64,000 bases of DNA. It comes from Hirudinaria manillensis. Lineage: Eukaryota; Annelida; Clitellata; Hirudinida; Hirudinidae. Every line of letters starts with the position of its first letter. Position 1 is the stretch's first letter. This document shows positions 3,477 to 53,111 of this stretch, one piece after another. A program made the translations under genes and the position numbers. The notes below the pieces were generated by a model. That model searched no databases, was not told the DNA's origin, and worked only from the letters and a program-made list of their open reading frames with translations. Location of the stretch: contig CM067527.1 in assembly GCA_034509925.1 (NCBI GenBank), positions 1,672,501-1,736,500 of the forward strand. The letters are read 5' to 3'.

Positions 3477-7461
<3,985 letters not shown>

Positions 7462-7485
7462 CATCATCATCACCTTCGATCCAAA

Positions 7486-9307: not shown

Positions 9308-9343
<36 letters not shown>

Positions 9344-12300: not shown

Positions 12301-12800
12301 TCGCCATCGAAGTTCTGGCTAGGGACTGTGGATTTCCCAAGCAGCTGGAAAGCAGAACGACTCTGAATCTGGTCATAGTCAGGAAATCGAATGCCGATCT
12401 CAGGGCTGGATTTCTGGAGTCCAGCCTGTACTCCGGAAACTCCTTCATGTTCTACGGAAACATCGTTCTCTCAGAGGAGAGCCTTTCTTGGACTCTGGTC
12501 TTGTGCGTAGTGACGGCTTTCATCGTCATCATCCTTCTTACTGCCATCACTTTGGTCGGCTGCAGGGGAAACGATAAGGCAGCGAATGCCAGCTCCGTCG
12601 GGATGGTACGGATCCGAGCCAACTCCACCGCCACTTACACCACTGACGGTTTCAGAACGGCTCTCCTGGAGAAGCGAAACTGCCACCGAGTGGGAAAGAC
12701 CGAGGAACAACACGAAGAAGCCAGAAGAACTTTCGGGAATCGTTTCAATTGCTGGAAGGCCATTTCTAGAATCTGTAGGCGCATGCGTCGAGGTGTATAG
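7486..12800 (+). CDS. Protocadherin-like protein with seven cadherin repeats
   Basis: Single-pass calcium-dependent adhesion receptor of the plasma membrane. Splice-consistent coding exons are 7486-8154, 8434-8634, 9041-9173, 9730-9926, 10306-11166 and 11313-12800, giving about 1182 residues. The ATG opens a signal peptide of about 20 residues. Cadherin repeat boundaries are marked by the calcium-binding motifs DINDNSP, DCNDNAP, DVNDNRP, DSNDNAP, DVNDQPP and DVNDNHP, plus a membrane-proximal repeat, making seven. DADSG and AxDxGxP motifs are present. One transmembrane helix is encoded near 12484-12560, followed by a short basic tail of about 80 residues. Seven repeats fit the delta-1 protocadherin class, but I see no CM1/CM2 motif in the tail. 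EC4 carries a poly-Ser run and a poly-Asp run that look like trinucleotide expansions. The end of exon 5 is ambiguous: 11166 has the stronger GTAAGT donor, while 11160 also keeps frame. Confidence 0.9.
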
Positions 12801-14238
12801 GTGGAAAATCCAGGTGGAGAGAAGGTGCCTGAGGGAAGTGCGCAGTGATTGTTAAACGCATCGTGGCTGAAAATGATTTTGAAGCGATTGATCAATGACC
12901 GGTGTGACAAGAAAAAGTGACAGTGTTTTTAAATTTAATACCAACAATAACGATGACAAGTGATGATTAAGATGATTCAGACTGTTACAAGCTCGGACAA
13001 TATACATATATATATTTTTAATTTCAACAATCGCACGAATAACCGTGTAATAATTAATAAATAATAGCAATAACAACGATAATTTTATTAATAATCAATC
13101 ATGAATATTTAACGAGCTGTCTTTGAGCCAAAGGGAATCGTCGGAGACTCGGTTTTTTTTTCTCTCTTATAATCTTCGTCTTGATGTTCTTCCGTCGTCC
13201 AGTAGTAAAAAGTAGTAAAAGTTCGTGACAACTGAAAAGTATTTTTAATTTTTATTTGCCATATAAAAGACGCCATTTTTTCCATTAATCTAATTTATAA
13301 GGAAATGTAAGTTCCAATCGCCGATGTATGAAAAAGGAGATAAAGAGAAAAAATGCGATGTGTTTGGCCATCTAATGACGAATTATTTTTTGCAGTTATC
13401 AATTGTTTGAAATAATATTCCAGAAATGAATTTTAAAATGACCGATAAGTTAAATTTAAACTGACCGTGCCGTCATCATGAAAAGTATTGAACATTCGAA
13501 TAAATATAAGTATGATTTGATTAAATATAATTATAATTTCAATAAATATGAGTACAATTTAATTAAATTTCAAAATAAATATAATGGCATCAATACGATA
13601 AAAGTTTAGCTAGGAATGGCACTTGTTTAAGACGACCATATCCACCCACGACTATCACCAGACATACCAATTTATCTTCACTAGTTCTGCTACTATTATT
13701 TTTAATATACTTGTATTTTATAAATTAAACTATTTATTTACTTTGTCATTATTAGCATTAAGTTTGTGAAATTCTCGGTCATATCTATAAATTTCAAAAC
13801 CTTTCCATAGATGGAAGCTCGATATAATTTATCGTTTATCACTTTTGGAACAAAAATTGTGACTAAAAAAATAACTTCAGCTTTAAAGAGTATCTTTAGG
13901 CACAGTAGAAGCTAATTGATAATATAAAAAAATAAAACATTATGGCAGATTTCTGCAACGAAGTTTCAGCTTTCTTTTCTAAATGTCGTAATTTTTCGAA
14001 TTAGATCAAAATTTTGAATCTTTAGAGTAATTTTTTCAAGAATTTTTGACACGAGTAAACAAGAGTCGTGTTGCTTTTAATTTATATCCTCACGTGCTTT
14101 TGCGCAACAATATTTGCGCTCGAAAACAAGTTTTATGAGGGCCTGGTGGGTCGAGTACTGAGTTCAAATTAGCTTCATCATTTAAGAATAGTTATTCATT
14201 TTATTTGAAGCATTTGAACATAAGTGCCGACGACCGAC
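12801..14238. other. Intergenic, protocadherin 3' flank and LARP6 upstream
   Basis: AT-rich sequence with no supported coding region. AATAAA-like signals occur but no particular polyadenylation site stands out. Confidence 0.6.
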
Positions 14239-16124
14239 ATGGACTCAGGGCACAAAGAAGCCGTCGACATTAACGGGGAATTGTCTGAGGATTGTTTCAG
14301 CGACGATGAACCGAAACATGACGTCGAAGCAACCGATGAAATTATCAAAACCGACAAAGTCGTCTCAGTAGACGCTCTGCTCAGTCACATAAACGAACAA
14401 TTCGAAGGAATTGACTCACCTCCTGCGAAATCTGATGAAACTTTCCAAATACCTACCGATGACCTGGTGGCTAAGATTGTGCAGCAGATTGAATATTATT
14501 TCTCAGACGAAAACATTGTTAAAGACGACTACCTGCTGAAGTTGATTAGGCAGAGCAAAAAACAATTCGTCAACCTCAAAGTGATTGCCACCTTCAACAA
14601 GATGAAAAAGTTGACAAAGAGCTGCAAGGTGATAGCTTATTCCATAGAAAAAGCTTCGACGAAGTTGGTCCTCGATGAGAAGAAACTGAGGGTGAAAAGG
14701 GTGGACCCGCTGCCCGAAATACCTCATAAGGATTTTGGAGACGCCAGTAAAGTGGTACTGGCAACAACATTGCCTAGTCTTTCAGTTGAATCCCTTAGGG
14801 AGCTGTTTTCAAAGTGTGGCCAAATCTCGAAGGTTGGGATTCTGATATTTTTATCTTTGCTGTAATTTCATTGGTCAAGTTTGTCTGTTCAAAGCTTACT
14901 TAAACCATGAGCAGTTCAATTGAATTTGGTTTTGCAGCTTTCTAAATTTATTTATTTCTTCATAATTGGTATGTAAAGGAATGGGACTCCTAATAGACAA
15001 GTATTAATAAAACACTACCATCGAGTAATCTTTTCGTCTGCACGAATATTTTTCAACCATATGCACGCGGCCTATTTTTCACCGACCAAAATTGCAGATG
15101 ACGGTCGTACAAACCGAGGCAGAGATTCCAGAAGTCATGAAGGAGATCAGGAGTGGCATGAAGATCTACGCCTTACCCTTCGCTTTGGTGGAATACACCG
15201 AGGCCACGGCGGCCTCTCTCGCCAGCAAATCCTTGACCAACAATTCCGACTGGCGAAGGGGAATCAGGGTGGAGGTCCTTACCAAGTTTTCCACCAAGAT
15301 ATCAAAGGATAAGGAGAATAAAATGGGTACAGTCACAGGTAAAATTGTTCCTTTTTTTTAATAGATTGTTTGGGCATAAACTTAAGTTTTCTTTTTATAA
15401 GAAATGTTAAACCTATAGATTTCTTCCTATGTGATGTGTTTGTAGCCTAGTGCTTATAGAGTTTTGTGATTTGTGCCAATAAATGGTTTTTCCAATTGAT
15501 TAGTTCTCGAGCAGATGATAGTTTTTAAATTTTTATGGAGAATTGTTACACTTTAAAACAGATTTGAGCCCTTAATTTTTATTTATTTTGTGCTATAGAT
15601 TTCAATTTAATTATAAATGTTTATGTACCTCAGATTCTCAGACAAAGACCAAGCCACAACAGCAGCAGAAAAACAAGAAGAAAAAGAAATCTCAGGCGAA
15701 CCAGGTTGCAGATAACCGCCCGAATTCCGGCAGCAACCCCGAGCTGGAGAGAAACTCCAGCCCCATGAGTGAGAAGAGGGGCATGCCTATTCCTCAATTG
15801 GACGGGGGGTCGGGCAGCCCGAAGCACCCTTCCTCGCTGGGAAGCAGCCCGCGGAACCGGGCCGGAAGGCACCTCCCTCCGGCCCGGTCTCCGCTGGCCG
15901 CCGAACTGGAGGAGGAGATGGAGTCCAGGTTGAGGTCCAGTTCATTTGGAAGCCCCCTATCTAAGGCCAGTCTTTGGCAGCCGAGAAGGGCGCTCGAGAC
16001 CGGCGGGATGGTAGGGAGCAGCGGTCACCTCGAACCCTACAGGAGCACCCACATGGGGATAGTGAGGAACCCCAGGATCCCCGATGACACGAAGGGGTTC
16101 ACCATTCCCAGAACCATCTCCTAA
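14239..16124 (+). CDS. LARP6: La-related protein 6 (LARP6)
   Basis: RNA-binding protein of the LARP6 family, known in vertebrates for binding the 5' stem-loop of collagen mRNAs; that target is family knowledge, not shown here. Exons 14239-14832, 15098-15338 and 15634-16124 join in phase to give 441 residues. Residues about 74-155 form the La motif (QQIEYYFSDEN...VNLKVIATFNKMKKL). Residues about 170-275 form the LARP6-type RRM (VVLATTLP...LRELFSKCGQISK, then MKIYALPFALVEYTEATAAS). A Lys-rich stretch, a Ser/Pro-rich linker and a C-terminal SUZ-C-like segment (MGIVRNPRIPDDTKGF) follow. The ATG at 14239 is chosen because the reading frame has only a GTG further upstream. It is convergent with GLDC, 531 bp away. 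Confidence 0.93.
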
Positions 16125-16655: not shown

Positions 16656-19600
16656 TTAGTTCTTGGCTGCCCTGACCTCTCCTTCCTCTTGCTGATAGGT
16701 TGAGATCGGGGGGCAGGAACACATGAGGTGTTGGTCACCATAGGCATCATCAATTCTTCCGATCATCGGCCAGAACTTGGGAGCTTCTAAGTCCGAGGCC
16801 TGAAATTTGGATTTGAAGGTTGCATTTAGAGGGGCTGTATAAACCTTCGAGATGGCATGTCTATTATTGCTGTTTGAAATTTTGGGGGAAATGTAATTGC
16901 AATTAACTAGTCTTATTGGTAGATTCAATTGGATAATATAGTTACATTATTCACTTGATACAGTTATTTAATATATTAAAGTAGTTACGTTATTAATTAT
17001 TAGTTAGTTATATTATTTGTTTAATATTGTGTCGCACATGGTCCTGAGTCGTCAGTTGGGTAGGAAAAGGCTTTGCAAGGACTTACTGGGAGTTTGGAGG
17101 CCAACTCTCTTGGGTACGGTCTGTTCCAAGAGTCGGAGTTGACAACGGCCATTGTGTGTGGTGACATCTACAAAAAAAGATGAGGGTGGGCTTAGTCAAA
17201 ACAGGGTGCAAGAAAGCAATGGCAGGGCATTCAGTACATGAATATTTAGTTTGAAAATCATCATTAATCAAAGTTTCAAAGAGATATGAAGCTTCTCAGT
17301 TTAAAAGTTTAGACCCACCTTGAGCGGGTTGACCGATTTGTCGAGCAAGCCCTGTTCGATGTCTGAGATCTCGTGTCTGATGGCTGGAAGACATAAGAAT
17401 GGGAAAGGGTTAATTAATTAATAAGGCTCCACGATAGGCCATTACTAATCACTCATTTGCGATTCTTATCTCTAAAAACCATTATCCTAATCCTTTGCTT
17501 TTGATCTTCTCGCATATCTAAGCCATGACTAGCATTGTCATGGTAACCGATGTTGGCATTACGTTCATTATCGTTTATCATCGACAATCACCGATAAGGG
17601 AGTCGCAGAGTCTGTCCAATTCCTCCTTTCCCTCCGATTCCGTTGGCTCAATCATCAGACACCCTGGAACGGGGAAGGACATCGTGGGGGAGTGAAAGCC
17701 TGTAAACATAAAGTACAATCAGTTATGAAAAAATGGAAATCAATCAAATAAAAAATTGATTAATGAAAATTAAACTTAATTTGCAAACCTAAATTTATAA
17801 TGCCATAATAATTTCTATTAAGTTATTACACTTTGATCAAGATAGCAAGTTCAATCATCAATCAATAGATTTAATTTTGGACTGCCTCCATAACCAACCA
17901 TAATCCTGAAGTCTCTTGGCAATGTCAACAACTTCTATGCCCGTTGTCTTCTTAAAGTCCCTGCAGTCAATTATGAATTCGTGGGCACAATAACCTGTAA
18001 TAATTATAATAATAACAACAATTGTTATCATTATTATTATTAATAACAATAGTAATCATGACAGAAAACAGTAATGTTAATTGTGATGGAATTACTCATG
18101 CAAAACATTTCTAAAGAAAAACAGATACATGATTAATCACACATTAACACATCAGCCAGTCATAGTTACAGCAATGTACAACAATATCTATGTAGGGATT
18201 TATATATTTATCATCAATTGAATAAATTGATTAAAATATTAAAGTTAAAAGAATATTGTATTGGAATCATTAAAAAGACAAACCGACCATTCTTGTTGGT
18301 AAAGAGGATCTTGTAATAGCCCTTGAGTCTGTTAAGCATGTAGTTGGCATTCAAAATGGCCACTTGGGTAGCCAGCTTGAGATTCTTGGCTCCCATCATC
18401 TTGACATAGGCCCAGGAGATGGGCACGATAAGACTCGAACCGTACGGGGTGGAACCCACGCTGCCGTAGGACCCTCCGGTGGTGCCCTCGATGGCCACGA
18501 CGGGGTGGTTGGGTAGGAATGGGGCGAGGTGCTCTTTGCTGTTTTTCAAGTTTTAATAATTAATTTATGGTATTTGTTATATTCCACATTATTTTTTTCC
18601 TTCAGATTGCTTTAATAGGCTATTATGCCCTCTTGAAATTACAGATTAAAAAAATATCTTGTGAATTTGACATAATAATATATAATAATATTAAAACTAC
18701 TTTTATTATTAAACTCATCGTTAGATACTTTTTAAAATTATTGCTTTGGGAAGTTGCTTTGAGAAAAAAAAACTAAAACCAAGAAGAAATAAACACCAAC
18801 ACTCCAATCGGTCCCATTCCTGGTCCTCCACCTCCGTGAGGGATGCAGAAGGTCTTGTGGAGATTCAGGTGGGCTACGTCTGCACCATAATCCCCTGGCC
18901 TGCACAGTCCCACCTGGGCGTTCATGTTGGCTCCATCAAGGTACACCTGACCCCCGTTGCGATGAGTGATGTCACAGATCTCTCTGGGTAAAGGAAGGGT
19001 AAAGAATTGGTTCAACTCAGTCCCAATGGTCAAAGACGATAAAAAATAACAATATAATACTTTTAGTAATTGGTAATAATGAGGATAATAAAGACCATTG
19101 CATAACAACTATTTTTCCATTTAATATTGTAATTATTACATATATGGTTATATTTTAATATTTTTTAAAACATGATTTAATTTGAATCATTATCATCATG
19201 TCGACTGACCGAATGTTGTCATCAAAGACTCCATGGGTGGAAGGATACGTTATCATCAGGGCTGCCAGCTTCTCCCTGTGCTTCTCGGCCTTGAATAAAT
19301 TATTATTATTAGATAAATTAGTTAATTTAATAATAAAATAATAATAATAATAATAAAATAAAAAGTTAATTAGCACTAAATAGGAAAATAATTCAAACTT
19401 TATATTGGTTTAACAACATATTAAGATAAATTGAATAGCTTAGAGTAAGACAACTAAGCAGGCACATGTGACATTACTTAATTAGTTGTATTGTAATTAA
19501 TCAATTTTTAATAAGTTAGTTAGTTAAGCACCTTCTCAGAAAGGTCGGAAAGGTCAACGTCCCCATTCTTGAGGACCTTCAGGACCTCGATCTTCATCCC

Positions 19601-19994
19601 TGCCAACTGGGCACTCGCTGGGTTCGTTCCATGGGCAGATTCGGGGATAAGACAGACCTGGATATGATAAGTGGTATTGTAGAAAAGAATTAATATTTAT
19701 TGTTATAATTAACGTTATATTATATTGTAATATATTATTGTTATGTTATAATAATAATAATGATAATATAATTATTCTGTAATTTATATTAAAGAATATA
19801 AAAGGATATGTAAAAATTTCAGTTTGTGATAAAATCAGAGAAAATGAAACAGATAACTCTATTGAACTCACATTCCTGTGTTGCTGTTCAATGGACTTCA
19901 GATATGCCAAGATGGTTCTCAGGCCAGAATATTCGCCCTGTGCACCGCTACATTTAATGAGTGACAATAATTTTATTCTGGTTAGCTAATAAAC

Positions 19995-20087
<93 letters not shown>

Positions 20088-20937
20088 TAATAATAATCCG
20101 GTATCTATGCTATGGTAATAATTAACATACATTCAGAAAATAATGTAAATGTTAGCAATCAATCAGCCAATTAGTATGATAACTAAAATCAACATATTTT
20201 ACAGCAACAACAACAACAGTGATGACAACAACAAGGCACCTGTTGGACTGGAAAGAGAACTTGGAAAACCCGGTCAGCTGGCAGAGGTCCCTTTCCAATT
20301 CCCCAAAGAGCTCCTCGTACCCCTCCGACTGGTTTTTGGGGACGAAAGGGTGGAGGTTGCTGAACCCGGGCATGGAACAAGTCTGAGTTGTTGCAAAGAT
20401 TAGATATTCATTAGGTAATATTATTATTATTATTATTATTAGTTAACAAAAAACCCAACCATCATCTCTGATGCGCTATTAAGCTTCATGGTGCATGACC
20501 CCAAAGAGATCATCGAGTGCACGAGCGAAACGTCCTTGTTCTCCAACTTCTTGAGGTACCTCATCATCTTCGTCTCTGAGTGGTGGCTGCGAGGAGATTT
20601 AAAATTTAAATATTAAAATTTAATAATAATATATATAATAATAATAAAATAAAATAACATTAAGTTTGCAATTAATATAGATGTTATCGTAATAACAAAT
20701 AATAAACAATAATAAAATAATAAATAAATAGTAATCAGAATAAACAAATAATAATACCAGTAGTATTATGATTGCTGTTATAATTAATTTTATGATATAT
20801 TATTAATAATATTAATTGATAATATTAAATAATTTATTAACCTGTTAAATACTGGATGTTTCAGATATTCGGATGTTCTCTTGAATCCGGTTGTGAGAAA
20901 ACTTTTTGTCTTCAGAGTGGAGCTGCTGACTTGATCC

Positions 20938-20970
<33 letters not shown>

Positions 20971-23900
20971 TAATTATATAATAAATTAGTATATAATAAT
21001 AACATCGTTATTATAAGGATAATAATATAATTTAATAATAATAAATATAATAATTTAATAATAATAAAGTAACATTTCAAGATAACATTTCATACTTATA
21101 TGATAATAATAGTAACAATAACATAAATAATATTGATGATAATAATAATAATAATAAATTCAACCAACTATTGTTTTGTTGCTGCCAAAGACGAAGAGCA
21201 AGTCATTTATGTCTTCGTCCTGAGTTGTTTCGTCCAATGACACTCCGACCTGGAAGACAAGGAAATGATGACGACGACGACGATGATGGTGATGATAATG
21301 ATGGCGGATGTTGATGATGATGATGAATGCTAGGGTAAACAGATTCTGGTGATATGGACAGGGCAGATGAATAACGCCAAGGTCACTGGAAAGGTTGTTG
21401 TGGTTTCAAATTGATGACGACGACGACGACGATGATGATGACGATGAGCCAACCGTTCCATCCGCGAAGTATCTGAGGTTGATCTCCTTTTCGGCAGCTC
21501 TGGACTTTATGCCGTCGAGTTCGGCTGCGGACTTCGGGGAGACGTGGAGCGTGTCGAAGAAGTGCTCGTTCAGCAGACCGTGACCTGCCTCCTGGACACC
21601 TTGTGGGGTATATAGTTGATGATGATGATGACGATGATGATGAAGCTGGTAATGATGATCAAGTCAAATATAAAGTCTAAGGTGAGAGTGAAATGACTGA
21701 ATGAACATTAGAAAAATTCAAATAAAAATTGTTGAATTAAAATAAAATTCTAATAAATTCATTTGACATGCCAGTCACCTTCAGCAAGGAAAAGGGCGCC
21801 ATTGTGAACCCTCTGGGCAATGCCCCTCAACCTTTCCGGTCCATGGTAAACGGCGTACATGGCAGACATGTTTGCCAGGAGAGCCTTTTTTATTTATAAA
21901 GATGGAAAATATAAATTTTGTGAAATAAAACCGTATGGATTTGTTTGTATCTTTTAAAATGCAAAAATAAATCTTGCCATACAAAATATTCATATAAAGC
22001 CCTAGAGCCAATAAATACCTTAGGGTAGGGGCTGGGTTAAGACCATGAACTCATAAATAAACATTGACCCAATAAATATTATTAAACAATTAATCCTAAT
22101 ATTAATTAATTATTCAGCATAACTTTGGAATCATTAACATCTCATTAAAACAATGTAAACAATGATTATAATAAATTATGCACCTGTGCAGTGCAGATGT
22201 TGCTGGTTGCCTTCTCCCTCCTGATATGTTGTTCCCTCGTCTGAAGTGCCAGTCTGTAACACTGGTTGCCATTGGAGTCCCTGAGCAAATTATAATGAGA
22301 GAATATTATTATTATTTAATATTCCAAGTCAATCTCGGTTGGATAATAAGTCAAATAAACGTAAAAATATTTATCAACACTACCATTATTATTATTTTTA
22401 TTATTATTATTATTATTCAAATACTACCACCACCACCAACAACAACATCAGCAGCAACATCCACCCACTTCGAGATGCCAACAATCCTTCCTGGCAAAGT
22501 CCTCTTGTACTGATCCCTGGTGGCGAAGAAGGCCGCATGTGGACCTCCAAATCCCAGGGGCACACCGAACCTTTGACTGGTTCCAACCACGATGTCTGCC
22601 CCAAACTCGCCAGGGGGCTTCAGCATTGTGAGGGCCAGCAGATCTGTTGCCACAACGACCATGGACTGGAGAAATAGAAATATTTTTAATTTATTTAAAT
22701 TTAATTTTGTTGCATAATTTGAGGATAAGTAATTTAAATAATAAAATATAGTATCTTATGTATCTTCTACGTTGAGACGATACATAATTTCAACAGTTTG
22801 TTTGAACAATAAATATAACCAACATATATTTTTTAAATGTTTATTTAGATAAATACAATTATTATTATTATAAGCAATATACTAACCATAACCCCTGTAC
22901 TTAAACACACATACATAAATTATAACTTTAATACCTTGTTCTTATGGGCCGCTTCAGACAATTGGGTGAGGTCAAAGATTGACCCGGTTGTGTCAGGGTA
23001 TTGGAGCAGGATGCCAGATACGGAGGCATCTTGGAGATTCATCTCAGACCTGTCTTGGACCAACACTTCAATGCCAAGGACACTAAAAATTAGGTCAGCC
23101 ATTTTAATATAATTATTTTTTATAGTTAATTTATTTGAAAAATAACTGATTAAATTGATTAGAAATTGTGGGAGTTGTTTTCAGGTGTGTTACATGCTTG
23201 ATTAGGTATAGACAAACTAAGGGCGTTAGGTTGTAATGTAAATAAGTTAGCAGAAGAAATTATAATAAGGTATAATTATAATTATGTCTGCTCGAATAAT
23301 TAAGCTTTAAATGCTTGGTTGTAGATTTATAAATATTACAGGAGATGAAAGAACATTCTACAGTTATATTATTAAGTTCACAAGGTTAGACTTTAAAAAA
23401 AAAAGTTCTGTCTAATGCAAGCACACAATCACTCGTGCACATGTTAGCATCTCTCAAGGCTATTATTGTGGACCACAATCACACTCTGAGATCTCCCATG
23501 TTTATTAATTTATCACAGAAAGTCTCTCATCTTAAGTCAATTTTAGACTTTTATCAAGTGCTTTACATTACTGTTGTCGTCATTTGATGATTAACTGATA
23601 TCATCATCGTCCTTGTTATCATCATCATCATCATCAGCATCAACAACATCATCATCAACATTCTTACTCAGCTCTTGTCTTGAGGACATCAATGTTTTGT
23701 GGGTGGCAGAGTCTATCAACAAGAAACTTCTTCCTCTTGTTCTGTCTGTAGATTTCATTTGGTCAGAAATTATGATAATATTATTCAGTATTATATAATA
23801 TTCATTAATAAATCAATTAATTGACAGATCAATAAATTGATATTAATGTCAGATTGATTATTGATGAAGGTGCTTGATTAATGGTTAATTTGGTCCAGGT

Positions 23901-27192: not shown

Positions 27193-28037
27193 ATGGACGA
27201 AAGTTCGACTAAAGCGAAAGTCTTTGTGGAATACTGGTTAGAATTTACACTATTTCGTTGTCTCTACCATTTTTGAATACCATAATTTACAAATCATACA
27301 GAGATGTGGGTTTGGCTAGATGCCAGGTTTAGAAATTAGTTACTTATGGTGAAGACCTCAGGGCTATTATAATATTAGTTTCTGCGAACGAATAAAATAT
27401 AATTTATTGATAAAATATTCATTTATCAGCCAAATGTGAGGGTACGACAGGCGCTTTTTCAAGCTGCGAGAGGATATTGCAGGAAGATTGAAGGAGGTTG
27501 CAGTAGACGGAAGACGTGGACGGAGAGGTTAGATAGGATATTTCCAAGGTCTGACATTACATCAATACACGACTAGGCTATAAGACCTCAAGTTTTATTA
27601 TTAATAATTTGTTATTGATAAACCCTATAAATTTGAGTGTATTTGAACTGTTTAAGGTGCCTTTGAAATCTCAGTCAATGACCAGTTGATTTTTAGCAAG
27701 ATTGAAGCTGGAAAGTTCCCAAAATCTTCGGCAGTGAGTTCAAATTTCTTCGGAAAATGTAGACTCCGACATCGATGTTAATCAATGAGTTTTTCAATTA
27801 TTGTTGCTATGTCTGGTTTTTTTCTAAAAATATATTTACATATTTGTTATAAATTAACCTCATATCACTTAATTGCTTCAAATTGATGAAAGATTCAATA
27901 TCTTTCAATTCCAAAATGCATTTTTGCAAACAACTGTTGCCATTTCAAAGGTCATCCATGAAATCGACAGCATCTGCCATGGAAACAAACCCAGTATGGT
28001 CACTGATTACGAGGAGGCCACATGCTCCATCCTCTAA
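27193..28037 (+). CDS. SelW/MIEN1-type selenoprotein with in-frame TGA (CxxU) and CaaX terminus
   Basis: Small thioredoxin-like Rdx-family protein (SELENOW/MIEN1 group), likely a redox protein. Exons 27193-27236, 27430-27527, 27657-27733 and 27951-28037 join in phase to give 101 residues. Exon 2 reads C-Q-M-TGA-G-Y, so TGA at 27437-27439 falls exactly at the U of the family's CxxU motif (CxxC in human MIEN1). Frame, splice sites and family conservation continue after it: GAFEISVNDQLIFSK is the family's hallmark strand segment, and FPKSSAVIHEI aligns with MIEN1 without a gap. The protein ends in CSIL, a CaaX prenylation box like that of MIEN1. A SECIS-like hairpin lies at 28229-28298. An upstream in-frame ATG exists, but the chosen start gives the usual family length. 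Automated annotation would probably break this gene at the TGA. Confidence 0.9.
27437..27439 (+). other. Selenocysteine codon (TGA)
   Basis: This in-frame TGA occupies the second redox position of C-x-x-U, two codons before Gly-Tyr as in SelW proteins. Both flanking exons keep the reading phase. Recoding is supported by the SECIS-like hairpin downstream. Confidence 0.88.
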
Positions 28038-28228
28038 AACAAGGTGATGGACTCTCCACCCCGTGAGTTCTTCCTTCATTCTGAGGATTCCTTTCTAGCG
28101 AGATTCAAATTGATTATCTGGTTTCATTATCTGATTAACTTTTTATGATGTGCATATCAATTAATTGATCATGTTGTTTTCGTCTAATCAGGCAGAATCT
28201 TCGGCAGACGTCCAAGTCTCGACCCTTT

Positions 28229-28298
28229 GGAAGTGCATTGTTGATGATCGTCTGCTTCGAAACTCGTCAGAGGCGGGCTTGATGCTGAATGCAACTCC
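28229..28298 (+). promoter_or_regulatory. SECIS element in the selenoprotein 3' UTR
   Basis: Read by eye as a canonical eukaryotic SECIS. Helix I pairs TGCATT (28234-28239) with AATGCA (28288-28293), extended outward by GGA/TCC (28229-28231 with 28296-28298). An internal loop is followed by the quartet ATGA (28244-28247) opposite TGAT (28280-28283), giving the tandem G.A pairs. Helix II pairs GTCTGCTTC (28250-28258) with GAGGCGGGC (28270-28278), nine pairs including G.U. The 11-nt apical loop carries AAA (28260-28262), 12 nt after the ATGA. An AATAAA follows at 28339-28344. It lies about 190 nt past the stop codon. Confidence 0.88.
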
Positions 28299-28338: not shown

Positions 28339-28344
28339 AATAAA
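28339..28344 (+). terminator. Probable polyadenylation signal of the selenoprotein gene
   Basis: AATAAA 40 nt after the SECIS hairpin and about 300 nt after the stop codon. It would leave the SECIS inside the 3' UTR. Confidence 0.55.
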
Positions 28345-30610: not shown

Positions 30611-33600
30611 ATGGATTTCGAACAAAATGGTAACATAATTTACAACAAAAAAAGTCGCAACTTAGTTAAGAACTGTCAATAAATAACATTTACACGGATT
30701 TTTGCGGCATCGAGGTAAGGTTCTAGACTTCTAGACTTCATTGTTTTCTTTCTCTTCCTGATATTCTAGCCGAAACCGTCTGCGAAATAGCCAAGAGAAT
30801 AGGCGATCTTTTGAACGACAAAACACACCAGAATCTGAAGGCAAACTTTTCGAATCTCCGCTACCTCCTAGAATCTCCGTTCTTCGCACGTTTGTGTCGT
30901 ATCAACCGGTCAGTGGAACAGCTAGGAGTTCTGTCCAAAAGTTATAATCTCGATTCAAATGATTTCGATATCGACCGTCAGACTGGCGAATTGGAACTCT
31001 TCAGAGATATCGTCATCAACAATGACAACAAGAATGAAAAGGTATTTGTTGTTGTACTTGTTGTTTGAGCTCAAGAAGACATTTCTGTTTACATATTACT
31101 CTATTTTATAATCATATTATTTGAGCTATTCAGTTCTCTTCATACTTCCATTATTATCCTCATCATCCTAGTCATCATCACCTCCTTTTAGTTAAAGAAG
31201 CTTCCTAGTTACCATCATAATCCTTGCCACTTTCACCTTCTTAGCATTATCATCACCATCATTATCACTACCAGGAAACAGGTCAAAGCAAGCAACCTCA
31301 AATCGCAGAAAAACTCCAGCCGGCCGAGCAGATACTCAACAATGGCTCGAAAAACCTGGAAGAAGATTTCCAAGGTGGGTGGGTGGACAAAGTCACCCTC
31401 CGAAGGGGCAGCAACCCAACCCTCGGGCTGAGTCTGACGAAGATGAACGGGGAGAACGTGAACCTCAACGGGATTTTCGTGGAGGTCGTTCAAGAAGGAA
31501 GCATTGCGGAGAGGTTGTTTTACGTGGTGTTTGTTTTTTTTTTTTAAATTTTTTGTTTTTCCTCAGACACCATCAATTGCATACAAAAATAAGAGAAAAT
31601 AAGAGAATAGTTAAAACTATAAAGGAAAAAAAATCATCATTCTTGAGACAGTATTTCTATGACATTACCTGCAAAGCATCATAAAATCATTCTTCTTCTC
31701 AGCAGCATAATCACCATCATTATCATCAACACCACCATCTCCATTCTCATCACAATCGTCACCATCATCACCATCATTACCATCATCATCATTATCACCA
31801 TCAGGGACGGGCGACTGAGGCCTGGAGATCAGGTACTGGCCATCAACGAGCAGCTGGTGGAGCCTTCGATGTCCAACGAAGAATTCCTGGAACTCCTTGA
31901 GAAAAACAACGAAGCCATCGAACTCATCATCAGACGTTCTGCCCCGAACTCTGCCTCAAACTCCGCCCTCCCTGGAGGCGAGAGGGCAGATGCCATGATG
32001 GTCGAGGTGGAACACATAATCACATTCACTAATTTAATTCTTAATTAATTTGTACTCTGATACTGATATTTATACCATAATTGCAACAAGCAATCATTTT
32101 AGTTTAATTAGTAAGGTTCAGTTAACTAATTTAGTTAATACTGACCTTTGTCATCTGCTTTATGCACAGAAACAGCCAGTAGGAAAGGAGCACGAAGAGG
32201 AATATGAGGAGGTGGAGAAAGAGATGGTGGAGATTGTACCCATCCACCTAGTGAATGACGGATCGGGTCTGGGGTTTGGAATCGTCAGGAGACCAGAGTC
32301 AGGAGGGGTCATGGTGAAGACGGTGCTCCCTGGCAGTGTGGCTGCAAGGGTGAGCATTCAAAGCTGCCGCCATAGATGATAATTTTATAATTATGTTGAT
32401 TTTTACTATAAGTTATTATTAATTTTATTTGTGTTTTATTTATTTAGTTCTAATTTATACATACTCATTTTTTAAAATGATGGTATCATCATCATCATCG
32501 TCATCACCATCATCACCACCACCACCAGCATCATCATCATCATCACCGCCATCACTTCCACAGGAAGGCGGACTTCAGACGGGAGATCACATCCTCCGGA
32601 TAGAGAACTGCATCGTCAAGGACATGACGACGAGTCAAGTGGCGACGATCCTGAAGCACTCGGGAGTCAACGTCAACATGACGGTGGGCCGGGCCTACAG
32701 CGGTCCGCCCGGACCCCACCCGGGTTCGAGGGTCGTGGTGCCCGCCCGACAAGTCGAGGACGTACTGACCATGTTGAACTCCGGAGGCAGGGCTGCCTCT
32801 TCCAGGAAGCAGACGAATGTTTGTGATTCTGTTTTTTAATTTCCTAATATTGTTCTGAACTTATCAAATCTCCTATCAATTTTTGTAATAAATTTTCTCC
32901 AAAATATAACTTCATTATCATCATGCAATATATAAAATAATATGCTAAATAATTAAAAAAATTATATAAATATATTATTTATCTGATATATTATTAGATT
33001 TTACAATAAAAAAGCGCTTAAAGGATCACTTGTGCATGTATTTTACAGCATGATTTGCTTGATCAGAAGATGAGTGACGGAGCGAGGGAAGGAGTGCATG
33101 AAGTGGAAATCATCAAAGACTCCGGAGGACTGGGAATGACCATTAATGGCTACCATGCACCTGGTAACTTATTTATTAATTAATTAGTAGTGTGATCATT
33201 AGGTTTAACTTGGTCCAACATGATGCAACCTCATAATAATTTTTTATCTTATTTGTTAATTATTATTATTATTATTAGCATATATTATTGTTATTATTAT
33301 TATTATTATTATTATATATTATATTATTATATATTATTGTTATTATTATAATATATTATTATTACTATATATTATATTATTATATATTAATATTATTATT
33401 GTTATTATTGATATTATTGGTGAGAAGAGAAATCTCTTGAATGTTCATTATTATTATTATTATTATTACTTATTAATTAATTAATCAGTTAATTAATTAA
33501 TTAATTATTGCATCAACAACTAATCCTTGCAGATGGTTCGACCTTCATACTGGTGAGTGAACTCGTCAGAAACGGAGCAGCAGAAAGAAATGGAAGGATA

Positions 33601-36600
33601 AGAGTTGGGGATGAAATCCTCGAGGTAATTTTATTAATCAATATATAATTAATATATAATTAATTTACAGTACATTTAACAGACACATCCATTCTGTGGC
33701 TTTAGGCGTTATTGTCAATTATTTTTTTAGTTTATTTTTTATTTTAACTCTATGCTATTATGTTTTTAAAATATATAATAATAAGATTTATGATAGCATA
33801 TCACATGTAATAATTCATAACGTTTTAATTTTACTAACACATTAATTTATAAAGAGTTATGACTAATTACAATTATAATGCGTCCAATGATGTTTTATTC
33901 CTAAAACCAGGTAAATGGCATCCCGTTCAGAAACACCACGAATGCGGAGGCGACGGCTGTGCTCCGGAACACGGGTGCTCGTGTCCTGATGAAGGTGCGG
34001 CGGAGGGATTCGGATGACACCATCACCTCTAAAGAGGTCACGACCCAGCCTCTAGCCAATGGCTTAATGGGTAACGTACCGAAGGAAACCGTTCGCAAGC
34101 AGGACAGTGGTACCAGTAGTGATAGTGGTTCAGGTCTGGCTTTGATTGGTTTTAATTTTATCAGTTAATTAAATTAACTATTAAAATTTAAGTCTTGTTA
34201 GATATTGGTATCTATTGTAATTGTTGATTTTCAGAAGTTGACAGGAAGATTTTGGAATTGCAAGATTTCTGGAAAAACATTCTTGGGCAGGATTGTGAGA
34301 TTGTGGTTGGTGGGATTTTTGAAGTTTCCAAATTATCACCTTATCACTCACTCATTTAGATTATCAAATTGCCACTGGCTTATCAAGTGAAAAAATGCTT
34401 AATTTTAATGAACTAGCAATGTCATAAATAAAAGAATAAATCTAAAATTTAATAAATGAAATAAAATATGTAAACATAAAAATTCAGGTAAATATACCAC
34501 ATACCACATTGCACTTGAATTAATTGTGATATTCACCTTCCTTAACTTCCTTGGGGGTATAAAATTAATCATTCCTCCTCGAAAACCCCGAATTAAACCC
34601 TTTGGAATTCCCCTCTGAAAAGGTCGCAAAGGTCATCAAGAAGGAAAAGAACAGCAGTCTTGGGATAACCATGAACAGCAAGACCAAGGGAAGGACTTCG
34701 GCTCACGACGAAGACGACAACGGCGATGGCGATGAGGATGATGAAGACGACAAGGCCGGTGACAGAAAGGTCAAGGAGTACTTCCACTACCTCCATGAGA
34801 TCAAGCCAGATGGCCCCGTGGGTCTCGAGGGGTCGCTAAGGCCGGGTGATCGACTGCTTCAGGTGGTTTTAGGATAATATTATTAGATATTAGATGTTAG
34901 GGTTAGGGTTAGGGTTAGATAATTAATTTTACTTAACTACTATGATTGCTAGTCTGCATTAATTAAAACAGACTAGTTTTAGGATAACAATTACAGAGAT
35001 ATTTATATAATCATAACTGTGAGAAGTATGTAAATCTCACAGAAAGGCCTTGTTGGTATTCATGATCGTGATTTGTAATGCTAATTGTAACTAATTATAT
35101 CAGTTAATTTGTGATAAATTTAAAATTATTTGGTTGTTCAGGTCGATTCTCATGCACTCATCAACCTACCACATGACAGAGTGGCATCCATCATCAGGGG
35201 TCTGGACACCCACATTTGCCTGGTTTGCGCCCGACTCCCTTATGCACCCAGTGAGCTGAGAAATTACAAATTTATATTTTTAATGACAAATGCTGCAATC
35301 TGCAATGCTGCAAAGATAAATGAGTTACAATCATCATCATCATCATCATTATAGAACCGAAGCTGGTCATAGCTCCCAGTATCAATGTCATGGAGACCAA
35401 AGTTATTGAAGAAGCCAAACCTTCATCAAATTTTACGGCTCTCATCCACAAACCTCAGATTCACATTCTCGAACCTCCCCTCCAGCGAGTGGTTCGCCAG
35501 AACAGCTCGGACAAACAAAACGGCCAACAGGACCCGAGGCAGAGGAGAGAATTCGATAGGCAGCCCGTCGCTTTGAACGACATCCCCAAAGACCTCGCTC
35601 CCTCCCGAGAAAATCTTTCAACTCTCGTCAGCGACAACTACAGACTACAGGGCAGCAGTTCAATTCCCGGGTTGGCTGGTAGATTCGCTTCCTCTGGAAG
35701 AATCGAAAAGGACATCGCAAGCTATGGAAATGACTTGCACCATGGCGGAAAATACCCTCCAAATTCTGAGATGGATTTTGGTTTCGAACCCGAGGGGGAG
35801 AGTTCCCTTGACACGTCGTTGGGTTCTCAGGCTTTGAGGGAGTTCTGTGAGTCGGGTTGGCAGACAGAGCCGACGTATGTCGATCTGGTCAAGGGTGATC
35901 GAGGTCTTGGATTCAGCGTCATCGCTTTTGAGGTTAGAAATTCGCTTTTGTTTTATTTTGAAAATGAAACGAAACTAGATTAAAGGCTGGGAACTTGATT
36001 AAATTCTTTTAAAATTTTTATTTTATTTTTAAGAAATTCTGAACAGTTGCACAAGTTTATTTGTAGTGCACCATAATCGTGGCATAGGAGTTTGCAATTT
36101 TATCTAATTGATTTTACTCACTTAACTCATTTAAGAAAGAATTTAAAAATTCTTTTCTTGACCAATACTTCTGTAAATCAATGGACAATTTATTTCTTAT
36201 TAAAACACGAAATTCAAATCATTAAAAAATCTTTTGGACAGAATCCCAGTCAGCCCTCCGAGAACTCTCTCCTCATCAGGGGCCTCATGCCCGGAGGTCC
36301 GGCAGAGGCAGACGGGAGGTTGGAACCCGGGGACAAGATAATCTCTGTCAATGACTTTGACATCCGTGACACGGACATGCAATATGCCGTCGACGTCATC
36401 AAGATAATACCTAGGGGCCTTGTCAAGATTGGTGTCCTGAAACCTATCAAAGCAGAAGCAGAAATAGAAGTGAGAAATTATTTTCTTCTGAATTTGTGAA
36501 TTTTTTTTCAAATTGCATGCTATGTGTTAAATCTGAATTAATGTTAAGTGTTATTAAATCAAGTAATCTTAACTTGCAGGACATTCAACAGCCAATCAGA

Positions 36601-37275
36601 TCTCCCGAAAAGACTTCCTTTGACTCTGAAGCTCCTCCTCTTAGCCCACCCCTGGACTTTTCCAGCAAGTACATCATAAACCATGAAAAAAATGTTCAAA
36701 CCCCATCAAAAATCCATCCTGTCCCTCAAACGAGGTCTCAGGCCAACGGATTTATGACAAAAACAACAAATGGGGCTATGGCCAACAACAACATTATCAT
36801 CAACAACAACAACATTATCAGCACCCCCACCACCAACAACAACAACACCCCCATCCATTCTTTCCCCTTGCACAATCTGAAGCTGTCTCCTGTCAGTTCG
36901 GTCGAAAGTTTTGAGACGATGGAAAAGAAGGGGAGCCAAGGAAAGGTGGCTTCGCTCAGGAAGGCCTTTGAGGCTCAGCACGACGTCGAAAAGATCTTCC
37001 GGCAGCATTTCCCGATCCCGGTTTCTGCCAAAAAATCCTCCGTCGCGCCTTCCGAAACTCGTCTTGTGGACGTCCACAGGGAGGAGAACCAGGGACTGGG
37101 CATAAGCATCGTGGGTGGGTTGGAAAGGCTTTTTTTGTTGCAATAACGATGATGATGACGACGATGAGGATTGTAATTGTGCCTAGGGTAACAGTTGTTA
37201 TGCACAAATTCTAAGAATGACGACAGATTTCCTACAAACTTTCAGAGAATTTGTGCATTAATCATGTCGCTTAAA

Positions 37276-37307
<32 letters not shown>

Positions 37308-40300
37308 TATTATTAAATTGTAAACACCAGGTGGGAGCACTTCAATCAACAGGTCGGCAGGTGTATTCATCAAAAATGTCTTTCCGGGAAGTCCGGCTGG
37401 TAGTCCTGGAAAACTGAGGAATGGAGATCAGATATTGGAGGTGGGCGGGGCTGACAAGTCTTGGCTAATTAATTATTCATAACTGAGTGATGTTTGCCAG
37501 TTTGTAAATTGCTAATATACAAATCAATTGATTTCTATTTGCATGATCTTTTTTTTTAAATGTTTCAAAGTTTAATTTTCTAAATTGTGAATTCAAAATA
37601 TTGTTATTAATCCACTAATGTAATTAAAGTTTTTTTTATTTGCACTTAAATTTGATATAACCACTTATTTGATATAATTTGATAATTATTGAATTAATTA
37701 ATTTATAATAATAATAATAATATGTTAACAGGTGAACGGAATAAACTGCAGGGAAGCAACACACGAACAGGTGGTGGAGATCATAAAGAGTGCATCAAAC
37801 CCGATATGGTTTCTCGTCCAAAACATTCAAAGTCAGCTGCCACAACCACAACAACAACAACAACTGCACCAACAACAACAACGAGTTCCATCGAAGTGGG
37901 GTGGAAATGGAACAACTCCCCATGTAACTTTTTTTAATTAAAATTAATGTCAACTCCTTAATTATTCATGAGCCTGAGTTGTAAAAACTTAAATTAATAT
38001 AACATATTAGAAAAGTAATCTTATTTGAGGCCATTTAGGACGTCACTTGCTAATCAATTTAGGTTCATCTCATACACTTCTTTACATATTAGCTCATTAA
38101 AGTTCTTACAGTTGAGATTAAAATTTTTATTAGTAATATATCCAAGATGATTTTCATTATTCAGATTCAAGTTAATGATGTTTTTTTTTGTCATTTCAGG
38201 ATTACCTGCAGAACTCACAGCCTGGTAAATTCTATTCAGTGTATTGAGCATTAAAAGTATTTTTTTTTTTAAATTATCGTTTAAGATCATCAGCATTACT
38301 ATTACGATCATTATCAGTAAGTCAGAGGTGATAGAGTTGTGTTCAATAGCCTGATCAGTATCATCAGTATCATAAGCTTCCCAAATCTATCATTATCATC
38401 GCATTCGTGAGCAAATAAACTGGATTCCTTACATGTTTGTTGGTTGCCACAGAAAGGATGGGTCAGATAATGATAGTTGGCGCTCAATATCGACTATATG
38501 AAATGGAGCTAGGTTGGGTGGCTTGGGTAAATGGAAGCAATTACCTGTAATTATGCTTTGTCACACCTGTGTCAGACTGATCAAAAATGACCTGAAATAA
38601 TTTCACTCCATGAAGCATTCTCACTGCCTTCTCAGTCGAGAAGCTTCGCTAGTTTTCTTTGTCGAATTTTATTTTAAATTTGCGTTAATTTTGAGTGACG
38701 TCCGCTTCTTAATCATGTCGGGTTAGATTTCGATGAAAAGAATGTTTAATGAGATAATTTTTTTTATGAATCGGGTTTGGCTGTCGAAGAAAAGTTGCTG
38801 GAAAACTAAAAACGCTCCTCACGTTTTGGCGTTTTTTGTTTTGTTTTTAGAGGAAGCAGACGACACCGAGCAGAAATATGGCCACTTGGATGGCGAGGTG
38901 ATCTCCCTGGAGATAGATTTGGGGAATCCGAGAACTAGTCTGGGGTTGATTTTGACCGGAAATAAAAATCTGGAACAGATGAACACCTTCGTGGCTGCCG
39001 TTCAACCGGGTAGCGCGGCCGATTTTCACGGGGGTATCATCCCAGGGGATGAGCTTTTAGAGGTTAAAGAAAGAAAATGATATGTAATGTCTTTTTAAAG
39101 TGTTTGGTTTTGATCTGGTTATTCTGTGCCACTGCGTTATGGTCGCCTGACAGATGAATTTGTAGTTCTCTGACAGTTACATGATTATTTACTGGGTAAT
39201 AATTTGATGAAATGTAATCATGCCTGGAAATACTGATTTTTGTGACATCTTGCCAATATTTAAAGCAGGGTATTGTTTTAATTAACTTACCTTAATACTT
39301 TTAAATAACATCTCAATACCTTAATCCTGTAATAACTTATAATCTTTCATTGAATACTTAGATTAATGAGCAGACTTTGCAAGAAAGGAGCCATCTAAAT
39401 GTCTCCTACATCATCAAAACCCTCAAAACCCAAATCATAAAGATTGTTCTTTTGAGGTTGGACTCGTGCTATTTTCTTAATCATTGCCAGTAAATTCTTG
39501 TCAAAGAGGAGCCAATGATTTATGTTAAATCAATTTGATGCTCTTCTGCATTTATTTAAATTTTTTTTAGGAATCCTGCTAATATTGAGAAAATGGCACT
39601 CAATCCAAAAAGCCCGTTGCTCACCCCAAGGCTTAATGCAAATGTTAGAGAACATTTCAAGTATTGAAGACTTACAAAATTAAGATATTGTTTCTTATTT
39701 ACAAGTTGTAAATTTCATTGTGCCTTAGAATAAATGCAGTAGTATATAGTAGTGAGGGCTTTCCAAATAATAAACATTAATTGTACCATATGATGTAATA
39801 TAATGTATTTTTCATAATACAACTTTCATTCAAATTATTTCAGAAGTGTTATCAAAATTTATGTCAGCAATTTATTGTCAATAATTTTTATTTGAAGAAA
39901 ATGCCACGTCGCAGTGTTGGTGATGTGCTGGTCAATGAAAAGTTGCCTTCCGAGTCTTTCTTGAGCGTTGGATTTGATAACCTTAAGAGGGCCAAAAGTG
40001 CAGAATTTCTTGCGATCCCAGTACGTGATAAGAATCATGTATATGATAGGATGTGATATGTGATGATGATAATAATGAGTTATAATAAACCAGTGTATGA
40101 TAAGAATAATGTATATGATATGTGATGATGATAATAAGTTATATTAAATTCATAAATTAATGAAAAAATATATTCAGTTATGTCTGCTTTACATGTGACA
40201 TTAAAAGCTGTAGTTGTTGTTGTTACAAAACATGTTTTATCACGTGGAATTTATTTTGAGATGAGTGAACGAAATTTGCAAATCATTTCTGCTACTTCTG

Positions 40301-41970
40301 AAATTGAATTAAATTAGGGGTCACTCAGTGCTGCCTCCCCTGCAAACTCGAGTGAATCTATCAACACTGCAGGAAATGCTCTGCCAGAAATTAATGGAGG
40401 TATCGTCGTAGTCATTATCACTTGCTTTCACAATCTTCATCATATCATTAAGATGTCCTAAGAGAACTATTCTCTCGTGAGCTAGCATGAAGGTATTTGT
40501 TTTATAATTTTGAAATTTAAGATTCATTAATGGTATTAGTGCAAAGGGATACTTAGTTAGTTTAAGAAATAATGTAGCAGCTGTGCACGCTTGTTTTTAC
40601 ATGTTGTAAAAGTCAAAATATGATGTCATCGTTTAAAAGTCACGTCATGGTTAAAAAAAATTGTTAACGACTCATCAAGGTCTGACTAACGACTTGGAGA
40701 AGAAGTTGCCAGTTGCTGCAAAGGAGAGTCCGATCAAGCAGTCGACTCCAAAGCACTCGGAAAACCTCATGACCGTGGAAATCCCGAGGGGTGACACTGG
40801 ACTCGGGATTAGCATCATAGGGGGATCGGATACTTTGCTGGTGGGTGAAATTTTAACTATATAATTGAAAATGGATTAATAATACCATATTTATTTTATA
40901 ATGTTACTAGTAAAGTTTTGAAGTAATAGAATAAGATCATTTATCTCCTTTATTTATTAATTTAAGAAAATTTAATTTAGATTTTTAATTTGGCAAGTAA
41001 TGCAATAAGTAAAGCAATACTTATGTTATTGTTAACTTAATGAACTCAATAACATTTCATTCACAGGGAGCCATCATCATCAACGACATTTTTACGAACG
41101 GAGCCGTCGACAAAGATGGCCGCTTGAAAGTCGGAGATGTTCTGATCAAGGTGATTCCTTTTTTGGTCATTAATTTTTATTTCCAATGTAAACAAAACAC
41201 TATTTGTTGAATTCTTACTTCATCTAATCCTAACTTCTGCACCTACCTACCTACCTTATTTTTTTTTCTCTTATAAATTATTTTATAAATTATTTTATAA
41301 TTTATTTTCAATAAACCAGGTCAACAACTCCAGTCTGGAGAATGTCACTCGCGAGACTGCCATGAAGCTGTTGAAGCAGGGACCGTCGGACGTGACCCTG
41401 GTCGTGAGCAGACCCAAGGAGGACCTCATGACCCAGGAGGAAAACTTTGAGACCTTCAATGTGGATCTCAACAAGCGACCCGGTCAGAACCTGGGCCTCA
41501 CCATCATCGGAAAGCATAGGGACTCCAGTGTCTGCATCCACGAGTTGGTTGGTATACTTGATAGCTCTCTCACTTATGAGTGGGGAAGTGCTCTGGCTTT
41601 TGTTTTTAATTACAGTAATATTATTGTAATAATTATATTGATGTTATATTATTTATTAATTTTAATTGTTATTTGTATTTTGTGTTTGTCACTACTTGGG
41701 GTAGTGATGGAAAGCATGTGCCAGGATTTATCGCATCAATGCTGTCATATAAAAGTTATCGTTATGTAATAATTTATCAGTGGACTAATTAATTATTCAG
41801 TAATGAATTAATTAAAAACTGCCCCAAATCAGTTAAAGGGTGGTCTGGCAGAAGCAGAAGGTAGGTTAAAGCCTGGTGATGAGATTATGCTTATAAATAA
41901 GAAGTCATTCAAAGGACAAGAGGCTGCAGCTGAACTCCTCAAGGTTTATTATTCACTTCGTTCATAATCA

Positions 41971-42022
<52 letters not shown>

Positions 42023-42639
42023 TAATAATAATAACAACAATTTTATTAAATAACAACAATAGAATATTAACAAATAAAACAACAATTAAATAATAAATAA
42101 TTAAACAATAACAATCTCGAGGTAATGCCATTTCTAAGATTCACGATCGCTTCCACACCATCATTGTTGTTTATTATGGTCTATCAATTATCTCCTCCAA
42201 GTAATTATCCTTCCAGTCAGCTCCAGGCATGGTTCGACTGACTGTCAGAAGACCTTGGACCAAAAAGGCTGCTGCCGTCAACGCAGGAGTTCCGGAAAAA
42301 GTCCAGAAACGTAAGACCGTCTGTTGTTCACTTTTGACTTGTTTACTCTGGTGTTGTTGTTGTTATTATTATTATTATTGCTGCTATTATTATTATTATG
42401 ATTATTATTATTATTATTATTATGATAATCATGGTAATATCTTATAAAGATATAAAGAAAATATTTTTCTAAATGTATGTCTTTAATTCTTAAACTTTAT
42501 TTCTTCAACCTCTCAACATCCTGCCTCCATAAAAGGTTTTTAAAACAATTTTTTAATAAAACCAAAAAGTGTTTAAATTGAATCGTAACGATTATATAGT
42601 CAGTGTTACTGATTTTTGATTACTGATATATACTACATA

Positions 42640-42722
<83 letters not shown>

Positions 42723-42728
42723 TACATA

Positions 42729-42773
<45 letters not shown>

Positions 42774-44104
42774 TGTTTTTATAATTATTAATTATTCTAT
42801 TAATTTGTTTTGTTAATTTGTTTTGTAATTTGATTTATTGTTATCTTGACTGTGCAAACTTTGGCAATTCATCATTTTGTTAGCAAAGTCTCCAAAGTTT
42901 GATGATTCATTGTTTATGCAAAATGGTCGAGTTTCCTCCGATGAATAAATGATTCACAACACGTGATCGTGATTTTGCACAGAAATAAAAAAATAAAGTC
43001 GAAGCATGTTCGAACGTTGCTTGTCGTTCAGTGGTACTTTTTTCTTTTTATTATTATAACGAATTACAGGTTGTTAAACTCCTACAAATCGATTACGTAA
43101 TTGGTTAGTAAAAATTAAGCGTCCCATTTGACAATTTGTCGTCCGAATAATGAATCATTAACGATTTAAGTTTGCATTTAACTTTCATCTCCTCTTCATT
43201 CAGGGTCATTGGGTGCAGAGGTCGTCAAGGTCAGACTGTCCAGGTTCGACAGAGGAGTCCTGATGCTTCTACTGGAACGAGAGGCGGCCAATCATGGCAG
43301 CCCCTCGCCGGTCGTCATCAGAGAAATCAAGGGCCAGGAGTCCATTGCCAGACACTTCAAGGTCATGATGATGATCATGATTCATCATGAGCTGCTGATT
43401 TTAGTTTCAGTTTTTTTTATTATGGATTTATTTCATGTTTAAAACTCCAGGTTGGAGACAGGGTCCTGTCCATAAACAAGGTTGCAACAGATTCGATGAA
43501 CCTGAAGGAGATCATGGAGATAATACAGAATTGTCCCGGAGATGTTGTCTTTGAAATATCGAGAAGTTGAAACTTGTTTATAATTATTTTCATCGTCAAT
43601 GTTAAAACTCTCCTGACAAACATGATTCATGTCACTAGGTTCACTAGTTGACAATGCCTTGGTTCCAAGATCGAAATCACCCACTCCTTCTGCAGAAAGA
43701 CTGAGGTATTTGGAATGATACTATCCGATGATAGCATGATAGCACGACATAAAAACACTCCATAAGTTTTGCAACCTCCCCAAAACTTCCTTTTTTTTCT
43801 TCTCCCCAAAAAAAACAGCGGCATAATCGAAGACGAGAGGCGGATAAAAATCGTGACCCTGCACAGGGGCTCGGCAGGGTACGGGTTCAGCGTCGTCGGA
43901 GGGTTCGGCAGCCCCTTGGGGGACCTGCCCGTGTTCGTCAAGAACATCTTCGAGGACGGGGTGGCTGCCAGGGACGGCCGCCTGAGGAGGGGCGACAGAC
44001 TGGTGGCCGTCAATGGTGAAAGCCTCGAGGGCCTCAGTCACCAGGAGGCGCTGGCCGTGCTGAAGAATTGCGAAGGGACCATCGTCCTGACGGTCCTTGA
44101 GTGA
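30611..44104 (+). CDS. PATJ: PATJ/MUPP1-type scaffold, L27 plus 11 PDZ domains
   Basis: Scaffold of the Crumbs apical polarity complex; its L27 domain pairs with Pals1/Stardust in the family. Thirty-two coding exons: 30611-30629, 30770-31041, 31293-31513, 31805-32006, 32170-32349, 32564-32818, 33049-33163, 33533-33624, 33911-34133, 34235-34305, 34623-34862, 35142-35250, 35355-35932, 36242-36469, 36580-37114, 37331-37440, 37732-37923, 38200-38224, 38851-39062, 39362-39456, 39571-39643, 39898-40020, 40318-40399, 40680-40840, 41067-41150, 41320-41547, 41833-41943, 42217-42310, 43204-43361, 43451-43565, 43639-43705, 43819-44104; 1851 residues. L27 spans about 8-75. PDZ domains start near residues 128, 257, 400, 551, 842, 1095, 1238, 1448, 1545, 1648 and 1766. 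[16 protein letters not shown] before PDZ4 is diagnostic of PATJ/MPDZ. PDZ4 has a long Asp/Glu insertion and PDZ10 is degenerate. The exon 3 acceptor is my least certain join. PATJ versus MPDZ is not settled. Confidence 0.92.
33250..33475. repeat. (ATT)/(TA)-rich microsatellite in a PATJ intron
   Basis: Imperfect ATT and ATATATT runs between the PATJ exons ending at 33163 and starting at 33533. Confidence 0.85.
34897..34918 (+). repeat. Short interstitial telomere-type repeat (TTAGGG)n
   Basis: Three perfect TTAGGG units plus TTAG lie in a PATJ intron, 35 bp after the exon ending at 34862. Confidence 0.9.
42637..42778. repeat. (TA)n microsatellite in a PATJ intron
   Basis: About 140 bp of alternating TA with TATG and TACATA interruptions, arranged as two similar blocks. 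An AAT array also lies at about 41971-42035 in the preceding intron. Confidence 0.95.
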
Positions 44105-53049: not shown

Positions 53050-53111
53050 CGTTCACTTTTCAACTAAACAAGCTTCTACTTTAGTTACTTTTGGATACCC
53101 TTTAACTCTAA

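Follow-up and report, generated by a model that had tools for sequence, protein, structure and literature searches.

Selenocysteine (Sec)-containing SelW2 proteins have been described from bony fish, frog and elephant shark, and Rdx12 (MIEN1) of mammals and other tetrapods has been presented as their remote Cys homolog (PMC3316567). SelW2 of Ciona is counted among the selenoproteins of this organism (PMC2874816). A further account names SelW2 genes in Schmidtea, Schistosoma and Trichoplax, mentioning the Sec codon for Schistosoma and naming a Cys homolog of Schmidtea separately from SelW2 (PMC3828610). Human MIEN1 terminates in CVIL and is geranylgeranylated at this C-terminus (PMC6738349).

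The gene described here lies on the + strand of the window, i.e. the whole stretch of 64 kb that was analysed. It shares with SelW2 (SELENOW2) the affiliation to the SelW family and a CxxU motif with a TGA-coded U, and differs in stemming from another invertebrate species and in reading CQMU at this motif; the link to SelW2 runs via MIEN1, SelW2 itself being compared by description only. The best match of the gene product in the PDB was human MIEN1 (C17orf37, Rdx12; PDB: 2ljk) with an E-value of 1.4e-14 and 56.8 bits over residues 6-92. Both proteins have a CAAX end, CVIL in human MIEN1 and CSIL in the window product, whereas the human protein carries Cys where the window gene has TGA. SELENOW (SelW1) from mouse (PDB: 2npb) belongs to the same Rdx fold family and also possesses the CxxU motif (PMC3316567), but reached only 15.2 bits against the window product in the PDB search.

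Gene structure and in-frame TGA codon

The coding region is distributed over four exons, and all three introns between them (3/3) have GT-AG borders. The features of the coding part are listed below.

27193..27236, + strand: coding exon 1 with the ATG start; its last two bases begin the Cys codon of CxxU; the related protein P0001 (see below) starts likewise (MDEGSIKAK)
27430..27527, + strand: coding exon 2, carrying C-Q-M-U; residues 15-50 of P0001 matched here in the search of the own genome
27437..27439, + strand: in-frame TGA, the proposed selenocysteine codon; aligned with a W of P0001 that is taken to be a TGA read under a TGA=W code
27657..27733, + strand: coding exon 3 (AFEISVNDQLIFSKIEAGKFPKSSA); Rdx profile match, donor gtgagt after 27733
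27951..28037, + strand: coding exon 4 with the CSIL end (CAAX-like prenylation motif), which also occurs in P0001, followed by TAA

The spliced coding sequence of 306 nt forms a frame of 101 codons that closes with a TAA stop at 28035-28037 and translates as MDESSTKAKVFVEYCQM-U-GYDRRFFKLREDIAGRLKEVAVDGRRGRRGAFEISVNDQLIFSKIEAGKFPKSSAVIHEIDSICHGNKPSMVTDYEEATCSIL. Its sole in-frame TGA (27437-27439) is codon 18 and coincides with the U, the fourth position, of the C-Q-M-U motif, the Cys codon of which is split by the first intron. Besides this TGA, the 101 codons contain no stop and no frameshift. The gene model is regarded as real and not as a product of chance because the spliced product matched the Pfam family Rdx (PF10262) with 60 bits (cut-off 22.6; U entered as C), because of the E-value obtained with MIEN1 and because P0001 matches over 101 residues.

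Family affiliation and a related protein

On the strength of the profile match, the product is assigned to the Rdx family (SelW/SelT/SelH/Rdx12). Within this family the gene is placed on the SelW2/MIEN1 side because its best PDB match is MIEN1, because SelW scored so much lower and because the product ends in CSIL; the two PDB scores support a position nearer to MIEN1 than to SelW1. The Rdx profile retrieved this locus only from the own genome (1 match from 3 candidates).

A search of a protein database yielded one match among three candidates, P0001, a protein of 159 amino acid residues derived from a contig of 930 bases. It aligns to the window product without gaps over its first 101 residues, 80 of which are identical (14/17 before the TGA and 66/83 after it), and it contains no introns. 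P0001 has CEM-W-GYD at the redox motif and CSIL-W where the window product naturally ends, and then continues for 57 residues. Four of its five W residues (18, 102, 127, 128 and 156) fall on a TGA of the window and one, W102, falls on the TAA stop; the pair at 127 and 128 stands where the SECIS-like element of the window (see below) has TGA-TGA. That no W of P0001 meets a TGG carries little information, since the window coding sequence has no TGG codon at all.

The tail of P0001 was compared with the window read under TGA=W in 2004 chunk-frames. The stretch with the SECIS-like element scored 121, followed by two neighbouring chunks of the + strand with 60 and 59, and the best unrelated chunk (36690-37067, − strand) scored 53. 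In the own genome, P0001 gave four collinear matches with E-values from 3.9e-8 to 0.028, the fourth of which was the SECIS stretch; because all four fall at this locus, P0001 does not represent any second copy detected in the genome. Neither this search nor that with the Rdx profile revealed a second copy of the gene; both proceed by single exons, so that diverged genes such as SelT may escape them.

P0001 was almost surely called with a TGA=W code, most simply from a related species' transcript or other DNA free of introns, and would therefore share the Sec codon of the window gene and have its SECIS conserved. On this reading of the protein record, in which the presumed TGA codons appear as W, P0001 would carry a TGA Sec codon, a TGA stop and a TGATGA SECIS core.

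A preliminary description had proposed a selenoprotein of the SelW/MIEN1 group with four exons joined in phase and a single TGA. These proposals were borne out, and the affiliation can be narrowed to the SelW2/MIEN1 branch. The TGA does lie at the redox-active position, where relatives carry a redox Cys or Sec, and the family sequence said to continue past it up to the TAA is shared with P0001 at 66 of 83 residues.

SECIS-like element in the presumed 3′UTR

Downstream of the TAA lies a hairpin with the anatomy of a SECIS element, a finding that goes beyond the preliminary description. The features of this region are as follows.

28063..28191, + strand: probable 3′UTR intron with approximate ends; donor CCCC/GTGAGT, acceptor ATCAG/GCAGAATC
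28234..28293, + strand: SECIS-like hairpin in the presumed 3′UTR; scored by Rfam SECIS_1 at 19.3 bits, which does not reach the gathering score (35); recognized by anatomy and by comparison with P0001
28244-28247, 28260-28262 and 28280-28283, + strand: SECIS-like core of ATGA, AAA and TGAT, with 12 bases between ATGA and AAA
28250-28257 / 28271-28278, + strand: helix II of the SECIS-like element, 8 pairs
28234-28239 / 28288-28293, + strand: helix I (lower helix) of the SECIS-like element, TGCATT/AATGCA
28339..28344, + strand: AATAAA, candidate poly(A) signal downstream of the SECIS-like element

The intron at 28063-28191 is suggested by the spacing: 25 bases (28038-28062) separate the TAA from the GTGAGT donor at 28063, close to the 8 codons (24 bases) between the stop position of P0001 and its residues AES, which match the window from 28192, right after the AG.

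In a search of 2.6 kb, Rfam SECIS_1 matched the sense strand at 28236-28291 (19.3 bits, E-value 2.5), ranking among seven mostly chance matches. No Rfam family matched the window at gathering score, and the element is absent from the list for the whole window at E<=10. The case for a SECIS is built on anatomy and comparison because the gathering-score search and the E-value list gave nothing. The folding energy of the hairpin is ordinary (z -1.31; 26/200 shuffles equally good), and two mismatches (28248/28280 and 28249/28279) stand between core and helix II. A rule made of the ATGA/AA/TGA/helix anatomy, drawn up after the element had been seen, retrieved two sites from the + strand of the window, namely this element and one other (9 vs 7 consecutive helix II pairs), plus two overlapping lines from the − strand. 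Ten matches were obtained in 3.84 Mb of first-order random sequence, corresponding to 0.0009 per 330 nt.

Core motifs and helices appear conserved in P0001. Over the element, 14 of 19 codons are possibly identical between the window and P0001, compared with 8 of the 15 codons aligned elsewhere. All eight pairs of helix II and five of the six pairs of helix I could still form, the exception being 28234-28293, which cannot. At 28272 and 28275 the residues of P0001 rule out the G of the window, and a U-A or other pair stays possible. The residues fix AA and GA of the core; its 5′ part is fixed to TG followed by A or G only.

Selenocysteine machinery and further selenoprotein candidates in the genome

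The genome searched comprises 148.4 Mb in 23 contigs. Of the Sec machinery named for a check in the preliminary description, Sec-tRNA and eEFSec were found, and SepSecS was found as well. Three identical tRNA-Sec(TCA) genes are arranged in tandem on one strand within 1.8 kb (contig C2, 12130380-12132195; 76 bits). The tRNA-Sec model gave 52 matches in the genome, four of them over the cut-off, the fourth being a tRNA-Ser(GCT). The identification as tRNA-Sec is carried by the TCA anticodon, because the model also matched in all 14 control genomes, in five of them over the cut-off. Domain III of eEFSec was found on contig C3 (51.7 and 51.4 bits) and SepSecS on contig C4 as eight collinear matches. 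SPS2 was not found in one search of the genome with the AIRS_C profile; its matches were rejected as SPS2 candidates and presumably represent purine-synthesis enzymes. In a tandem array on contig C11 (6153689-6173371; period mostly 490 bases), each of the four units read contains a tRNA-Ser(CGA).

The GPx profile matched five times. Two of the matches, which we take to be GPX4-like, contain a TGA, in both cases as ACK-U-G; they are located on contig C4 at 7518857-7519336 and 7669796-7670265, about 150 kb apart, and in each the TGA occupies the catalytic position. Each is followed on its own strand by a SECIS_1-like match (22.5 bits, E 1.6; 20.4 bits, E 6.3). These two matches are weak and below the gathering score, and the 19.3 bits of the window element are close to them; the minimum free energy fold of the second GPX4-like element has no clean SECIS. 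The GPX matches lie on the − strand; the anatomical rule, applied at these five loci to the + strand, gave one partial match at the very edge of a locus, a result without bearing on the GPX genes.

Alternative explanations

A decayed Cys-type MIEN1 gene, in which TGC or TGT had turned into TGA and the TGA is a plain stop, would explain why a single base separates this codon from a Cys codon and why human MIEN1 has Cys at the same position (CXXC; PMC3527542). Such a pseudogene is very improbable: the frame runs through 101 codons without another stop or frameshift, 66 of 83 residues past the TGA are identical in P0001, and the SECIS stretch is conserved as well. A second copy was likewise missing from the two exon-by-exon searches of the own genome, which could miss a diverged one. 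P0001 also speaks against a splice variant that skips the TGA through a later acceptor of exon 2, for it retains exon 1, the TGA position and everything downstream in one reading. We regard such a variant as highly unlikely as well, notwithstanding a SelW2 isoform of Schistosoma japonicum without the first coding exon, which its authors considered maybe an error (PMC3828610).

Were TGA to encode tryptophan in the nuclear genome, no recoding would be involved, and the P0001 record does show W at the position in question. The same reading would, at W102, carry P0001 past its perfect CSIL terminus into a stretch with homology to the 3′UTR of the window gene. Moreover, the redox position is occupied by Cys in the aligned MIEN1 and bacterial relatives, and the accounts of SelW2 give Sec or Cys there, with CxxR in one pufferfish protein (PMC3316567). 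Each profile match of the GPX4-like genes contains a single TGA, located at ACK-U-G, the long coding frames of the window are open under the standard code, and the genome possesses tRNA-Sec(TCA). The probability of a tryptophan codon is accordingly close to nil. In contrast, the locus very probably represents a functional gene for a selenoprotein in the SelW2/MIEN1 branch of the Rdx family, complete with a presumed SECIS.

Proposed function and significance

In the proposed mechanism, the mRNA would be spliced from the four coding exons and probably one 3′UTR exon. The SECIS hairpin in the 3′UTR would recruit tRNA-Sec and eEFSec, by which the UGA at codon 18 would be translated as selenocysteine. 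The product is predicted to be small, thioredoxin-like and presumably redox-active, with C-Q-M-U as its redox motif. Its CSIL end is likely geranylgeranylated, which would hold the protein on the inner side of the plasma membrane, in the manner of human MIEN1.

Lipid anchoring of a Sec-form MIEN1 is suggested because the CSIL end is common to the window product and P0001. We therefore put forward, tentatively and with somewhat less than even confidence, that MIEN1 in its Sec form is prenylated and acts at the plasma membrane, and that Sec chemistry at the membrane may be ancestral to the MIEN1 branch, with mammals having changed to Cys later. SelW1 is not known to have a CAAX end; the motif is reported for MIEN1 and is perhaps not universal in SelW2. 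In the parts of the few papers covered by a literature search, we found no discussion of a CAAX end on a Sec-bearing member.

Since Sec-containing SelW2 is already on record from fish, frog, sea squirt and flatworms, the window gene is one more member of this group. It contributes an invertebrate SelW2/MIEN1 gene that is well supported as Sec-containing and has a mapped SECIS candidate, and its CAAX end suggests a selenoprotein anchored to the membrane. Gene callers that read TGA solely as stop would be expected to shorten such genes. Judging from P0001, gene calling under a TGA=W code may reveal a selenoprotein, and even its SECIS by way of the read-through tail.

Other features of the window and genome

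COX1 reads under the invertebrate mitochondrial code (table 5), which marks the source as an invertebrate without narrowing it further. A COX1 match on contig C9 (3026446-3027786) has the same score as that on contig C23 (1.2e-120), with nine TGA in both; the copy on C9 is either mitochondrial DNA recently transferred to the nucleus or an artefact of the assembly.

Several other genes were recognized in the window. On the + strand, 7174-12800 resembles by eye a cadherin/protocadherin-like gene, for which Pfam Cadherin was confirmed at 11181-12797 only; 14224-14862 is an exon of a La-domain protein; and 30700-44100 appears by eye to be a multi-PDZ gene of the PATJ/MPDZ type, with PDZ confirmed at 43766-44101 only. 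On the − strand, 18214-22755 contains exons of the glycine cleavage P-protein, with Pfam support at 22420-22755; the part at 18776-19108 is P-protein-like by eye, its only Pfam match being a chance match below the cut-off to an unrelated family. Long tandem arrays at 1986-3707 give THSL repeats when read on the − strand. An open frame of 398 amino acids at 51859-53052 (− strand) contains a SAP domain (28.1 bits; cut-off 23.9).
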